A stretch of DNA of 64,000 bases from Pezizomycotina sp. ARF18 (taxonomy: Eukaryota > Ascomycota): contig AZLU01000017.1 of the NCBI GenBank assembly GCA_002224055.1, forward strand, positions 161,142 through 225,141, written 5' to 3'. Below, piece after piece: positions 34,696 to 62,401 of the stretch (the stretch's first letter is position 1; the number at the start of each line of letters is the position of its first letter). The position numbers and the translations under genes are program-made. The notes beneath the pieces were generated by a model that was not told the DNA's origin, ran no database searches, and saw nothing but the letters and a program-made list of their open reading frames with translations.

Positions 34696-34870
34696 CATGG
34701 AAGACGCGACTGTGGGCTACATCAAGAGGTAAGAGAAATACTTTGCGTGGCGAGTGAAATTCGTTCTGACGTGGAGCAGACATGAGAGTGTCCAAGAAGT
34801 CCTTCGAGCGGGACTATCGCAGGTGTGCCTACCATATTGAAAAACTGGTCTTCGGTATGCTCACCCGCTG
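34696..34870 (+). pseudogene. Relic related to the LAGLIDADG/zinc-finger gene
   Basis: About 110 bp align closely with part of the minus-strand gene at 42610-42740. Both encode TV(G/E)YIKR, then a GGTAAG followed by KY(F/L)AWRVKFVLT, and after the inferred intron SKKS(F/V)ER(D/S)YRRCA. Many differences are synonymous in that frame. Downstream the relic reads YHIEKLVFGMLTR and stops. No LAGLIDADG or finger motif is present nearby, so this is a truncated fragment. Confidence 0.7.
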
Positions 34871-37329: not shown

Positions 37330-37815
37330 TTACAATAATCACCGTCTCGGCTTTGATTCTTGAGAGAGATGGTAGTGATAGTTTGATTATGTCAGCTGTA
37401 AGCAGGCTGGGCTTTTGGGAAGAAAAACGATGGATACTTAGATTATAAATGGCGCTCGCGCAATCTCGATTCTTAACAAGAAGAACCACGATAGCGAAAC
37501 TATATGATACGCCTGTGTCATGTTAATTTTTGGGAAGAAAGAAAAAATAATGGCTGTAATATTATACAAATAGCGGTATGGCGTTCATCTCTAGCAGGAC
37601 GATGATGGCGACATCATGTATGTCGCGGCGCAGTCTTAATTCTTGAGAAGAAGAACCACGATAGCGAGATTATATGACACGCCTACGTCATGTAAACTTT
37701 TGAGAAGAAAGTATAATGGCTGTTGGGTTATGCAGACGCCGTTATGGCATTCCTTCTTGACAAGACGATGATGGCGACATTATGTATGTGCGGCGCAGTC
37801 TTAAGTCTTAGTATG
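37330..37815 (+). repeat. ~170-bp tandem repeat array
   Basis: The marker AAGAACCACGATAGCGA occurs at 37481 and 37651, 170 bp apart. The surrounding ACACGCC..GTCATG, GAGAAGAAAG..ATGGCTG, GACGATGATGGCGACAT and GGCGCAGTCTTAA blocks recur in the same order. A more diverged copy precedes (about 37330-37445) and a truncated one follows (37792-37830). The copies are about 80% alike by eye in the central pair. Confidence 0.85.
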
Positions 37816-40855: not shown

Positions 40856-43192
40856 TTAAAAGAAAGAGAGAAAGAGAGAAAGAGAAAGCAAAGCGATCAA
40901 CCCGGTAGGCGCGCGTTTAGCCCTCAGATGGACCGTCAAGACGCCCCTCGGCTTCTCCAGGTTGACGTCCTCAGCCGACTCGACCCCCTGGTAGCCCTAG
41001 AACGACACCCGGGGAACGGACAGTTATGCCCTTGCCAATGCTTGCCCAAGAGATGGCCGACCCAGGCATCGACGTCACCGGCCTTGTAATTGCAACCAGG
41101 CTGATAAGGGCAAGGCAGGGAGAGCTTCGGAACGCTCTGCGGCGCGGAGGGTGTCGATGAGGACGCTGTGGTTGCCGCCGAACCTGCCCCCGAGGAGTCG
41201 TCTTTCAAATGTTTGCTGCGGATGTGCTGGGCGATGAAAGTCTTTGCCTGCACAAGGTGTAGTTGCCATTGTAATACTTGCCGCAAACAGGACACTTCCT
41301 CTCCCTCTCGGCGTGCGTGGCGAGATGGGCAGCCATCAACTTCTCGTCATCAATGACCTTGTCGCAGAGCGGACACTTTCGCTCTACCGCCTCCCCGGAA
41401 GCGCAGCTCCTCTTATGCTGACTTATCCCCTTGGCGGTAATGGCCCCCCTGTTGTAGAATCCGCCGCAGATATCGCAAATGTTGGCCGGATCCGCGTCGG
41501 GCGGAGGCTCTACCTAGCGGGTGTGGGGCTTCAATGGTCGTACCGATACGGTGAGGCCGGTCGGCGCGACTTCCGTAGCTTCTCGGGGACCTCGTCGTCG
41601 CCAACAAGAGCCCTGATAGCTGGAACATCTGGAAATCGGGATCAAGGTACGGCCCCGACTCCGAATCCCACTCCGGACCCGCACCGGATCATCCTCGCCA
41701 TCTACGAACCGCCAGCGAGGAGGTTCGTCTCTCAAGATGGCCTTCATCTCCCAGAATTTACTGTGATTCGCCATTCCGAGCATCCCAGAAGCGGCCAAGT
41801 CGCGGAGAAACAGCATGAGCGCCTTGAGTTGCAAAGCCTGATCTCGAATACGGGCAAGTGGTCGGGATTTTCGGGGTCGTACGGCGAATGGGGGACCTCG
41901 CCGGCGTCTCGTCTTCCTGGCGAACTCATCCACCTCGTAGCACAAGGCGTGGGTGTGACGGATTTCTGCTTCGGACGCACCGGCAAACACAATTCGCCTA
42001 TTCCGGTCGATCGAGCCGTCGCTGTAAAAGCTACCTAAGAGGAATAGGCTGACAGCGATGATGTTATCACTAAATAGAAAGTTGGACTCTTTAGTGGTCA
42101 TGTCGAAGCCATACTTGTGCGAGGATGCAAAGCCGCACGCAAGATAGTTCTTCCTCATCTTTTTACTAACCAGGTAATACCACAGTTCATCACCGCGTAA
42201 TTGGAATTACCGCGGTCGGCATAGAATCCTCCGCGGAGATGGTAGTTTCGGAACGATTCTTCCAGCAAATCGCGTAACCCACAAATCAAAGGCAACTGCC
42301 AAATCACCTGCGCAAACACGATATCCCTCTTCCCGGTGCAGCCATCTGTCTGGAAGAGGCCTGCGAGGTAATACTCCAACAGCGTGGCGAACTTACCATC
42401 CTCGCTTTTCAAGAACAGACGATCTAGCGGTTCGGGATACCCTGAGGACGTGAAACGAGCGGTTCAACCGGAAGCTGGTTCACCCCGGCGAGGCTCCTGA
42501 AAAGGTTGGCCGCCCTGAAGATTACCTGTCGTCACGGTTGGAGAGGAGTTCGTCGGCGACTTCTTCCATCTCCATAGTGTCGCAATCGAGCAGGTAGCTA
42601 AAGCCGCGAGGCCGGCGCACCTGCGATAGCTCCTCTCGACAGACTTCTTGGACGCAGTCGTGTACCTGCTCGACGTCAGAACAAATTTCACTCTCCACGC
42701 AAGGTATTTTCTTACCTTTTGATATACTCTACGGTCACGTCCTTATCCTCCGGAGGCTCGGGCGACTCATCAAACCGGCGCTGTTGACGATCGAATTGGT
42801 CTTGCATCGCGAGCTGGTACTGTTGCCTCTTCAAAGTCCTATGCCTTGACCGTGCGGCCTTTCCAGCCCCTCTTCGAGGCGGTGTTGCGTTGTCGGAAGA
42901 AGACGAAGAAGAATCAGACGGCGACCACGACTCGTCGGAGTCGTCTCTGGCAGCTGGCCTCTTTAACGTCCTGCGTCTTGACGGTGCGGCGGGCTGTCTC
43001 CTGTTGGGGTTGGCTGGACTGGTCGTGCGGCGATTGCATCGCGGCCGGCTGGTCAACGGACCTGTTCTGCGGAAGGTTTGGAGCTAATTGCGGAACCTTT
43101 CCTCATAAGCAGCATCGACCTCCTCCGTCGTAGCGTTAGGAGGAGGGTTCGAGCTGTTTGCTGCTTTCTTCGACTGCCGCATTGAGAAAACG
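40856..43192 (-). CDS. LAGLIDADG endonuclease - C2H2 zinc-finger fusion
   Basis: Predicted sequence-specific nuclear DNA endonuclease of about 750 residues. N-terminal ~150 residues, from MRQSKKAANSSNPPPN, are disordered and basic with acidic/Ser patches and a repeated RTLKR motif. An inferred 50-nt intron (42715-42666; GTAAGA, CTGAC, CAG) follows VEYIKR. Two LAGLIDADG motifs come next: YYLAGLFQTDGC (42341-42367) and FLLGSFYSDGS (42015-42044), about 110 residues apart, as in single-chain enzymes; each keeps the acidic Asp. Then C2H2 fingers: CDIC-H-C (41403-41477), CPLC-H-H (41313-41375), CPVC-H-H (41209-41294), CX5C-H-H (41038-41112) and a partial CPFPGC (41005-41022). Yeast HO has a similar order but an intein Hint domain in front, which I do not see. 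Single-base losses break the frame (for example AAAAAGATG near 42165). The stop may be at 40856, or 40936 in another frame. The gene is GC-richer than its AT-rich surroundings. Confidence 0.8.
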
Positions 43193-43250: not shown

Positions 43251-43664
43251 GTTCACCTTACCCAAATTAGGCCAAGAAGAACAAGACGAAGTTGGGGGAA
43301 ACGACGGTGGGGAGAACGAAGGCCGGAAAAAACGAATTGGATTCACCTTAACCCCAATTGGAGCCAGGGAAGCAAGACGCGAACGAAGGAAACTATTGGA
43401 TTCACCTAAACCCCAATTGGGGCCAGGGAACGCAACACGATACTAGAGGAGGGGAGAGAGGGAGAGAGAGAGAGAGAGAAACAAAGAGACCGAACAACGA
43501 GGAAACCGACGAGATGATTCACCTTAGCCCCAATTGGAGCCAGGGAAAACAAGACGAGGGCGAAAACTGTAACCGAAAACCACGAAACCGCTTAGAGCGA
43601 GGACGGAACCACAAACGAAATAGTAAAACCTAAGCCCTAATTGGAGCCAGGGAAAACAATGACG
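43251..43664. repeat. Five direct ~40-bp repeats upstream of the endonuclease gene
   Basis: Plus-strand consensus is about ATTCACCTTARCCCCAATTG followed by GAGCCAGGGAAAACAAGACG. Copies lie at 43251-43289 (most diverged), 43341-43379, 43400-43440, 43517-43556 and 43625-43664. They begin 59 bp ahead of the endonuclease start codon, in its likely promoter. Spacing is irregular (59-117 bp) and a GA-rich run lies between the third and fourth. On the plus strand some copies read IHLNPNW(S/G)QG, but the frames do not connect. Confidence 0.88.
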
Positions 43665-57810: not shown

Positions 57811-58802
57811 GCTTTTTCTCCGGCGTTATAACGTGCAGTGTAATACCCACATGGAAGATAATCTGATAATCAGTTTTTTTTGAAGGACAGCGACGGTGAA
57901 CGTTTCATATTTGAGAAATTACTGGACACTAGTCTGTCTACCAGCTTCCGTTCATATCAATCTCCATGCTGATTAATTTGGTGTACCCCAACATATTCAA
58001 CGTCAAGAAGAGAAACGACATAAAACAAACATTTTGAAAACGAGTAGATCGACAAATATTAGGAGGTCCGATAGCTTACAAAGCACCCGTCTCTCAGGTC
58101 AGATATTCCAAGATCTTCTGCCTTGCCTATATTGCACAATCACGTTTATGCTAAGGCAGGATAGCAGAATAATTTCGAACGCCTGATAAACCAGTTTTCA
58201 AGAAAGCTGCTAAATCCTCAGTTAGACCCTGCACAAGGACATGACAATGTCGTCGGATATTACGAGCTTAAGTACTACCACCGGATATTGCTAGCAACAT
58301 AAAACCCTACGCGCATACGTGAAGACTGCGTTTACAAAAGAGTTGATATTGATGAAGATTGAATTGGTTAAGATTTTAAGGATTACATAACGGGAGATAA
58401 AATGCATTTATGTGTCAAGAGATTTTGGTCACTGTGCAGTGATGGATTGATAGTAACATCACTTAAACGCTCCGGCACGAAGGTTGCCTAATTGATAAAA
58501 GGTTACAGTAATGTCTTAGCGAGATGCTCCTGTCGTATATTGAGTATGAATGAGAGGATTGGAGTTGAGAAATACTGGAAGAAGAAGACTGAAGGATGTA
58601 GCGGCTATAGATGTGAGGACTTTTAGTACTGTTTGGTTTGCACTGTATATATCGAGAGAATATAAACGTAAATTAATTTCTTTTTTGAATACAAACTCCC
58701 TGATGTTCTTTCTATATATCTACAGAAACATTAAGAATATAATCTAGCCAAAATCGTTTCTTTTTTCGTTCAATCAATTATCGCAGCTCAACATGAGACG
58801 TA

Positions 58803-61800
58803 TTAGTTATCAACTTTTCCCCCTCCGCCGGAAAAAACATAAATAAGTAGAGAATAACTGAATTCAAGCACCCTCTCAACATTCTCAAGAAAAACGTCGG
58901 GATCCCGGCACAGCACTCTCCGCCGCCGGATTAAGCCCCTCAAGCGCCTTCCATCATCCTCCCCACCAAACACACTCCCCTTCTTCCCCCCTTCCTCCAC
59001 AACGACAATCTCAATAACACTACAACCAGTAGTCCTCTTCACCGCCGGTAAAACCTCATTAAGCGTCTTCGCCTCATCGTACAGCAACTTCCTATTAAAC
59101 ACGACGTCCGGATTCTCCTTGTTGAAAACTAAGCGTTCTTCACCGTATTAACGAACGGCATAGCGCGCTTCATATCCTGCTTGGGGACTTCGGACAAAAT
59201 AGCTTTATCGTCGACAGATATTTTGAGGGCGTCGAAGTGCTTCCGGACTAATTCGAGGTAGAGTCCTGCCAGGCGGGGAACTGAGGGCAACGTATATGGT
59301 GAGCTTCTTGGGCTTTTAGGGTCGTAGGAGAGTTTTTTGCCCTTTGATGCTTTTTTGATTTGGGTTGCTTCGTTGGATGTTATTTTTCCAGAGAGGGCGC
59401 GGACGAAGTCGAGGGCTGCGGAGAGGGATGGGAAACTTCTTGGGAGGGTTTGGGGAAGAGTTCGTTGTGGACGCTCGTTGTCTATTAAAAAATATTGATC
59501 ATTAGATTAAATAAGAAACGATCATTAAATAGTAGAATGAATAGTGTGCTTACGTTTCGAGGAGGTCTTTCCATATATACTCGGCCCAGTGAGGAGCGAG
59601 CGGGTGATCATGAGGGCCTGGACTTCGACCCATCTGAGAGCGAGGTCCTTGTGCATCTTGATGTCCGAAGCGATGCAGGCTTCCCTGTAGGTATCTCTCG
59701 CGCTCTGGAATTCGTAGAAGCTTCCTTCAAGGCGCTCTTGAATTGCGTTCTGTAAAATTTCCATACCATTATTAGCTTGATTATCACGTGTAGAATCCTG
59801 ATGTGATAAGTATTCTTACGCTTCGTATTCTTTCCTCGTCCTCTCAATCTTCTCGTTGATCTCGTTTTCGAAGACCTGGTCCCACCAGCTATCCTTCGGG
59901 CCCTCACGGAGCTGACCTTCTTTAGCTTCCTTGACGACTTCCTCGCACCACTCTTTCAAGGTGTGTAACCTGAGGATAGCCGCGTTCGCGACCGTCTCCT
60001 CAAAGTTAGCATCCTCGACGGCGTCACCGGCATCCGCCAAAGCAATCCTGCTAGCATCGGCACCGAATTTAGTGACGATATCCCTGAGGGTAAGGAAGTT
60101 TCCGGTCGACTTGCTCATCTTGGCGCCGTTGAGCATCAAATGTCCGTTCGCCCTGATACCGCGCGGCCAGTACTGCGGCGGGAAGAGGGCGATATGGATG
60201 TACATGAAGAACGTCAAATGGTTCGGGATCAGATCCTTTCCGGAGCACCTAAAGTCGAGCGGGTAGAAGTACTCGAACTCGCGCCTCATGGCCTTCAGGT
60301 GTTCCTCCTTGATGCCGCTGGCGAGGAACCTCAGGAGATATATCGCGGCGGGTGAAGATGTAATCCAGACTTCGTCGGTCATCTGCTCGACGGAGATCGG
60401 GAAAATACCGGCTGCTTCCCGTCGACGGAGCTGTGGAGGTAGTGCGCGATGGTATATAGTACGCCATGTAGATCGTACTGTCGCTCAGACTCTCGACGAG
60501 GAACTGAGGATCCCAGGGCAGCTTAGAGCCGAGACCGTAGCTCCTCGCGCAGGCCCACTGGTTCAACCAGGCGAGAACACCCTTAAAGGCGTGCCTGTCT
60601 CGTCGTGGTAAAGCTCGACGTTAGAGAAGAAGTGCTTCTCGGTGATCTCCCTCCAGCTCTCCTCGCCGTAGTCGAGTACCACTGTCGCAGAGGGCGACGA
60701 CGCAGTCGTCTCCGGAGCGGGAGGTGACTTTACCCTCGGGCTCGTTGTACACGAAGGCGAGCCGTCCTTGATCAGCTGCTCGCGGACAGCGGCTTCGCCT
60801 TCTCGACCTTCTCGCCCTTGTAGTCGCCTACGAGCATGGTACCCTGGTAGAAGCCCTCCTTGTACGCGAGTTCCTTGGCCTGCGCGAGCTGATCTTTATC
60901 TTCGGAGAGTGATCTTCATTTGCTCGACGAGGCCTTCGCCGTGAGCTTGCCGTACGTTGGCGTCTCGATGATAGGTATTATTTCGAGCTCCGCCATTCTT
61001 TCTTGATCTTGTAAAAGTCGCCTTCTTGGCGAGGTCGACGACGGTAGCGTAATCGTCTGGCGAATCAGAGGGTACGGAAGTGACTACACCGGTTCCCTTG
61101 GTCGCGACGACCGTTTCCATGGGAAGGATCCTGACCTGCTTGTGTACGGAGAGAGGAGCGTTGACGAGGTACCGATGATGGCGCTTCCCTGAAGAGTAGC
61201 TAATTGAGGGAATTCACCTTCCTTGGGGAATATTCTCTGGTACGCCTATTCCGAGCAGCCTGTACGAGCAGACGATCGCTTCCTTGTCGGAAAGCTTGAA
61301 GATGCCGTACTCGAGCTTTGGAGAGACGAAGCAGCAGGTCTGGCCGTACATCGTCTCAGGCCGCAAAGTCGCAGCGACGAACGAGACCTTCAAGCCCTCC
61401 AGTTCCTTGACAGATTTAAGAGCTTCCGCAGCGTCGGGGGCCCACTCGGCAACCTCGAGCTTAATACCAACGTACTCTTGTGGTCCTAGAGCTTCTCCTT
61501 CACTCCGGTCGTGGTCCATGCACGCTGACCGTCCTTCGGCGAGTAGATGTATACCGCTCTCGAACTGATCTTGTTCAGCTCCTTGAGCCTGTTCATCTGC
61601 CACCTGATGAAGCGTCATAGTACAGAATTCGCGTCCGTGGTAAGGAACTTCCTCCGCCAGTCGATGCGCGCGCCGAAGGAAACGCAGTCGTCGATGGCCT
61701 GAGCGGGAAATACTTCAGCCAGTACTGCGGGTCCGCGAACTCGGCGATTTCCTCTTTAGGTACGCCGACGGCTTCCATGATCTGGAACTGGTACTTGAGA

Positions 61801-62401
61801 GCGACTTTTTTACCCGCCGCTTTACCCTTTTTCGCGACGAATTTTGTGGGATCTTCCTTTTGCTTCGAGGATGTCGGCGGGGGTACTCGTCGGGTTGGAC
61901 GTCGAGCTCGGCGCGGCTCCGGCGAAATCCTTGCCGAACATTTCGATTTCTCGTACGAGTTATCCGCGCACGCTTTGATCGGCATACCCGTGCAGTGGAA
62001 CCCAGCGGGAACAGAGCCCTCTTCCCTTCCATGCGGGCGAAGCCACTGGAACTCAATCTTCGATAAGGTGAAGCAGTGGCCAGCGTGGAGGACACCGTTC
62101 ATGTACGGGTAAGCCATCGTGCCGAAGAACTTGGATTCCGCTTCCGTAGCTCCTCTGGATCCGTCGTGGGGTCTTCCTCCACCGTCGGAGGGTTGACCTC
62201 GAACACTTTGTCCTCCTGCCATTGCTTTGGTATTCTTCTCAATGGCCATGAGGGAGTCTCTTTTGTCGGTCTGTCGTTGTAATAGCAAATGGAGCTTTGT
62301 CAGTTTTTGGGAGGGCAAAAAGTTTGTGCTCAAAATGTTATATGTGTACTTACGTTTTCAAGCTTCATGAGCTTGCTCGCATCTTCGCTGGTAGCCGCCA
62401 T
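58803..62401 (-). CDS. CDC60: Cytosolic leucyl-tRNA synthetase
   Basis: Class Ia synthetase charging tRNA-Leu in the cytosol. Exon 1 (62401-62354) encodes [16 protein letters not shown] and ends at GTAAGT; exon 2 starts about 62270 with [12 protein letters not shown]. The HIGH motif is in [19 protein letters not shown] (about 62045-62110). [13 protein letters not shown] and [18 protein letters not shown] follow. The editing (CP1) region includes [17 protein letters not shown] and [15 protein letters not shown] (about 61350). The KMSKS motif is in [18 protein letters not shown] (about 60075-60135). The C-terminus reads [31 protein letters not shown]. Introns include 59819-59750 and one near 59550-59485. 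Ten or more single-base frame breaks occur (for example near 61958 and 59130), yet both catalytic motifs and the C-terminus are conserved, so I regard the gene as functional and the sequence as flawed. The 3' end is approximate. Confidence 0.95.

Follow-up and report, generated by a model that had tools for sequence, protein, structure and literature searches.

A putative nuclear LAGLIDADG endonuclease gene with C-terminal C2H2 zinc fingers in Pezizomycotina sp. ARF18

Introduction

Does a stretch of the Pezizomycotina sp. ARF18 genome carry a nuclear LAGLIDADG endonuclease joined to zinc fingers, and if so, is it a homing element, a nuclease taken over by the host, or the remains of either? 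The stretch, called the window below, comprises 64,000 nucleotides (contig AZLU01000017.1, positions 161,142 to 225,141 of the forward strand) of a genome of 46.4 Mb in 408 contigs. A preliminary description proposed a stand-alone nuclear nuclease with two LAGLIDADG motifs, four to five C2H2 fingers and a disordered N-terminal region in place of a Hint domain, comparable in plan to the HO endonuclease of yeast. Our analysis, which draws on sequence comparison and on analogy with known systems, favours, at slightly less than even confidence, a nuclear, divergent LAGLIDADG endonuclease of the single-chain kind that carries an array of C2H2 fingers at its C-terminus, lacks a protein-splicing domain and would behave as a stand-alone homing element.

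Results

The whole coding-like region of this gene, referred to here as the nuclease-finger gene, was delimited at positions 40889 to 43182 on the minus strand by open frames, a codon scan and a codon model, and it contains frame changes. Its neighbours include a gene for a Vps39/Vam6-type protein (best E 1.9e-37) and one that matches cytoplasmic leucyl-tRNA synthetase (E 4.3e-25), and a 5S rRNA gene also lies in the window. The preliminary description placed the gene in an AT-rich, repeat-decayed block. The flanks are indeed AT-rich, with a GC content of 0.36–0.45 at 29–41 kb and 0.39–0.43 at 44–48 kb, but the gene itself has 57% GC, and TA/AT ratios of 0.64–1.09 across 32 bins give no clear sign of RIP-type decay. 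Recent movement or selection, which had also been suggested, found little or no support, as there is one related fragment of 129 bp and the composition resembles that of the neighbouring genes.

Upstream of the gene, the repeat search of the window found a 36-nt repeat in four copies (43336–43654, plus strand), the 20-nt core of which occurs nowhere else in the window when up to 3 mismatches are allowed. A sequence of about 180 bp is present in two direct copies, 80% alike, in a gene-poor stretch at 37458–37809. A promoter scan of the sigma-70 type is inapplicable to a nuclear gene.

Both LAGLIDADG motifs were located on the minus strand, YLAGLFQTDG at 42370–42341 and FLLGSFYSDG at 42044–42015, the latter in a frame other than that of the former. 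They are 326 bases apart, about 109 codons, a spacing that fits a single-chain enzyme as judged from the sequence, and both retain the acidic residue D, as had been described. The acidic residue of the LAGLIDADG motif has a catalytic role. The first half (42191–42442, minus strand), read in one untouched frame, matched PF14528 (LAGLIDADG_3) with 15.5 bits and an E-value of 0.021, below the cut-off of 22.5. The end of the first half and the second half occupy 41706–42191 on the minus strand. After the frames of the nuclease part were joined, the match rose to 23.8 bits (E 5.3e-5) in two stretches, and a longer join scored 22.8 bits (E 1.1e-4), also above the cut-off; both scores carry a built-in bias, since the frames to be joined were chosen from codon usage and by eye, which favours the score. 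Hom_end (PF05204), which we take to be the PI-SceI/HO-type family, gave a weak match to the joined sequence (14.0 bits, E 0.055, cut-off 21.1), and searching the genome with it at E 10 returned nothing. In a search of the whole genome with PF14528 and unjoined frames, the nuclease-finger gene was not found at E 0.001. Of the families that had been proposed for checking, PF14528 (on the joined sequence) and C2H2 matched, while PF00961 did not, and no profile search of the draft sequence placed the domains in an unrelated family. Nor was a LAGLIDADG motif missing from the draft, or the fingers found to be split off into another gene.

It could be argued that this is a zinc-finger gene in which two LAGLIDADG-like motifs occur by chance. 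The single-frame profile score is marginal, the second half by itself has no Pfam match, the nuclease part has no sequence match in PDB or PHROGs, and an alignment of one half with the other spans 24 columns at 42% identity, with an hhalign probability of only 4% (P 0.01, single sequences). On the other hand, the two motifs stand at single-chain spacing, and a loose LAGLIDADG pattern, written to fit both of them, hit nothing but these two places when all six frames of the 64 kb were scanned. In addition, the joined score exceeds the curated cut-off, and against a phage-contig LAGLIDADG profile the joined sequence scored 6.7 bits, in the first motif only, compared with 2.2 for the best of 200 shuffles. 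This profile was built from 49 of 51 loci, L030 and L066 being dropped under a 90-residue minimum. We therefore regard chance motifs as very unlikely.

The zinc-finger part lies downstream on the same strand. Four to five C2H2 fingers had been proposed, of which three fit loose finger patterns, each within a single frame: finger 1, of C2HC type with a longer loop (41403–41477), finger 2, which is canonical C2H2 by profile and pattern (41313–41375), and finger 4, with the spacing CX5CX12HX4H (41038–41112). Finger 3 (41209–41294) runs across a frame break, and the region at 40889–41022 appears to hold a half or decayed finger 5 with the C-terminal tail; these two were recognized by eye. A strict C2H2 pattern has one match in the window, and it lies in this gene. 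In a single frame, zf-C2H2_4 (PF13894) matched with 27.8 bits (cut-off 27, E 3.2e-6). Joining the finger part lowered this score to 19.8 bits, under the cut-off, and gave zf-C2H2_jaz (PF12171) at 26.3 against a cut-off of 22.6. Zinc-finger proteins in PDB also match the fingers, the best being Aart (E 3.8e-10). Other C2H2 loci in the genome gave weak matches at 3 places (best E 0.025), and the LAGLIDADG pattern is absent from the 9.9-kb regions around these three loci and from two regions bordering the window.

The N-terminal part (42715–43182, minus strand) is of low complexity, in line with the disordered region described previously, and is probably disordered as judged by eye. At E 10, no Hint family matched the joined N-terminal part, and Intein_splicing (PF14890) had no match in the genome at the same threshold, which agreed with the proposed lack of a Hint domain. 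Within the N-terminal region, a basic segment at 42614–42741 on the minus strand has a related copy at 34703–34829 on the plus strand, identified by window and genome searches. The two agree in 105 of 129 columns; they lie 8 kb apart and are inverted relative to each other. The segment peptide matched only the nuclease-finger gene and this fragment in the genome search. The fragment may be the relic of a second copy, and its position 8 kb away is consistent with repeated presence at one locus.

A 50-nt intron at 42715–42666 with GT...AG signals was considered and dropped as doubtful, because the stretch is the better conserved one (the relic agrees with it in 46 of 51 columns, compared with 59 of 78 beside it) and the codon signal runs partly through it. 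The substitutions over the fragment, counted as synonymous and non-synonymous, are 6/12 in frame f1, 7/11 in f2 and 2/15 in f0, which is weak evidence at best. A second possible intron, upstream of the first LAGLIDADG half, was noted by eye only.

The gene does not form one open frame; its coding frame shifts repeatedly. The codon model, trained on 1141–1535 codons from other stretches of the window with the own stretches of each tested gene excluded, called 43182–42307 and 42164–41040 coding. The latter is one unbroken coding block that starts with the second motif and takes in the fingers up to finger 4. The model called 42307–42164, which lies within the first LAGLIDADG half, non-coding, and likewise all positions below 41040. 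We infer from the sequence that the fingers and the nuclease would belong to one protein.

Over the 1999 coding bases of the nuclease-finger gene the model counted 9 frame changes (4.5 per kb), compared with 8 in 2907 of the leucyl-tRNA synthetase gene (58800–62300; 2.8 per kb), 6 in 1846 of an esterase-like gene named by eye (3.3 per kb) and none in 1824 of Vps39; these changes may include introns. The absence of frame changes in Vps39 indicates that the assembly is not uniformly bad. Leucyl-tRNA synthetase is expected to be essential and hence intact. Nevertheless, its N-terminal alignment to the cytoplasmic enzyme, followed in the three-frame translation, switches frame inside a conserved block; a 222-residue piece, taken as this enzyme by a KMSKS-type motif recognized by eye, had one genome match. 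As a gene expected to be intact is also frame-broken, indel errors in the assembly are likely, and for this reason the frame breaks of the nuclease-finger gene are not readable as decay. The draft is too error-prone to tell whether the gene still works.

These counts bear on the view that the locus is a decayed relic, that is, a former nuclear homing endonuclease-finger gene from which the whole protein is no longer made. Its rate of frame changes is higher than that of the three measured neighbours, Vps39 having none, and a decayed related fragment lies nearby. However, the leucyl-tRNA synthetase and the esterase-like gene have frame changes too, the counts may contain introns, and the gene retains the two acidic residues along with most of the finger ligands. 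We consider such a relic unlikely, though well worth bearing in mind.

The nuclease-finger gene was also compared with the LAGLIDADG genes of the host mitochondrion. All 99 PF00961 (LAGLIDADG_1) matches of the genome search lie on a single contig, C50, up to position 228 kb; many of them have in-frame TGA and some have several internal stops. This contig appears to be a large fungal mitochondrial genome. PF00961 has no match on the nuclease-finger gene, either in a single frame or joined, and the GC content of the gene is 57%, whereas 8 LAGLIDADG loci from the mitochondrion, about 3.3 kb long, have 26–31%. In Pfam family and GC content, the gene is thus unlike the mitochondrial LAGLIDADG genes of its host, and its nuclear-type composition bears out the nuclear location claimed earlier.

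LAGLIDADG domains are also used as RNA maturases or as DNA-binding proteins that are not nucleases, and the mitochondrial contig of the host is rich in LAGLIDADG genes, so a nuclear-encoded maturase or a DNA-binding protein devoid of nuclease activity might be envisaged. Both acidic residues are kept, however, and C2H2 fingers suggest binding to DNA, which makes this explanation highly improbable.

Relatives outside the host genome were not confirmed in the collections searched, which are almost without fungi, so their absence says little. A tblastn search of phages yielded no relative, and the pattern stretches found in viral_contigs (3 and 6) and in genome_contigs (54) were not confirmed as relatives. 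Within the own genome, nuclease searches, including those with a frame-joined query, matched the nuclease-finger gene only, and neither an empty site nor a target nor a second intact copy was seen; the DNA searches are no proof of a single copy because they missed the relic inside the window.

Domestication of the nuclease for a function in the host, for instance a programmed rearrangement like that of HO, would account for the host-like composition and codon use, for the retained acidic residues and for the presence of only one other related fragment in the genome. The available portions of the literature on unidirectional mating-type switching gave no lead to a mating-type link, and we consider domestication distinctly unlikely. 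Among the open-access papers surveyed, as far as their text was available, a natural LAGLIDADG-C2H2 fusion was not found, which is weak evidence of novelty. Both terms occur in the available parts of PMC5987419 and PMC3203195, but the LAGLIDADG genes there are mitochondrial, and those of PMC13405050 and PMC5784728 do not mention a zinc-finger fusion.

Discussion

If the locus encodes a stand-alone nuclear homing element, as we favour, the two LAGLIDADG halves would sit on the DNA as a saddle and cut it at a specific site, and the fingers would contribute binding to the sequence beside the cut. The chromosome with the gene would then serve as the template for repair, by which the gene would spread. 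By analogy, we infer a target extended by the fingers, cutting and homing.

The homing endonucleases of the LAGLIDADG_3 family (PF14528) resemble the gene in that the joined sequence passes the cut-off of their profile, but the score is marginal and the fusion to fingers sets the gene apart. In Ustilago maydis, a GIY-YIG homing endonuclease gene of mitochondrial origin and codon usage is described in the nucleus in the accessible part of PMC7593156. Both cases concern a gene of the homing endonuclease type that resides in the nucleus of a fungus; the present one, on the other hand, is of LAGLIDADG type, has a host-like GC content and does not match PF00961. Composition and family therefore disfavour a route from the mitochondrion to the nucleus.

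The WHO genes of Torulaspora and Lachancea, according to the part of PMC7282813 that was available, are stand-alone genes in which a nuclease is joined to zinc fingers, and relics of further copies lie at their locus. They have CX2C fingers (3–5 motifs), an intein-like part ahead and an adjoining duplicated fragment of the target gene. The nuclease-finger gene likewise stands alone and has a probable relic at its locus, but CX2C fingers, an intein-like part and a target-gene duplication were not seen. Its zinc region has C2H2/C2HC spacing and C2H2 profile matches, which differ from the CX2C (Ash1/GATA-like) type, and tblastx of 27–48 kb against the window did not reveal a target-gene fragment duplicated in the manner of WHO.

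HO of Saccharomyces is described in the same portion of that source (PMC7282813) as a stand-alone nuclear gene with LAGLIDADG followed by a C-terminal zinc-binding region and with an intein-like part. The analogy with HO drawn in the preliminary description applies to the overall plan, a stand-alone nuclear gene with the nuclease part before the zinc region, but not to the details, as the fingers are of another type (C2H2/C2HC), the intein part is missing, with no Hint match, and the Hom_end match is only weak. Since defining features of HO and WHO were looked for and not found, we do not file the gene as a member of either, although by analogy it may work like them.

The possession of C2H2 fingers instead of the CX2C fingers of HO and WHO makes the gene look like an independent nuclease-finger fusion. 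It is possible, albeit doubtful, that this is a LAGLIDADG-zinc-finger fusion which arose independently outside yeasts, in a filamentous fungus, and without an intein, and which is a working homing element or a domesticated nuclease with a target set partly by the fingers. If that is true, the plan of HO would have evolved more than once. With a second LAGLIDADG-finger fusion of different construction, it could be tested whether homing nucleases generally come by nuclear targets through the gain of fingers, and such a fusion would offer meganucleases guided by fingers a model from nature.
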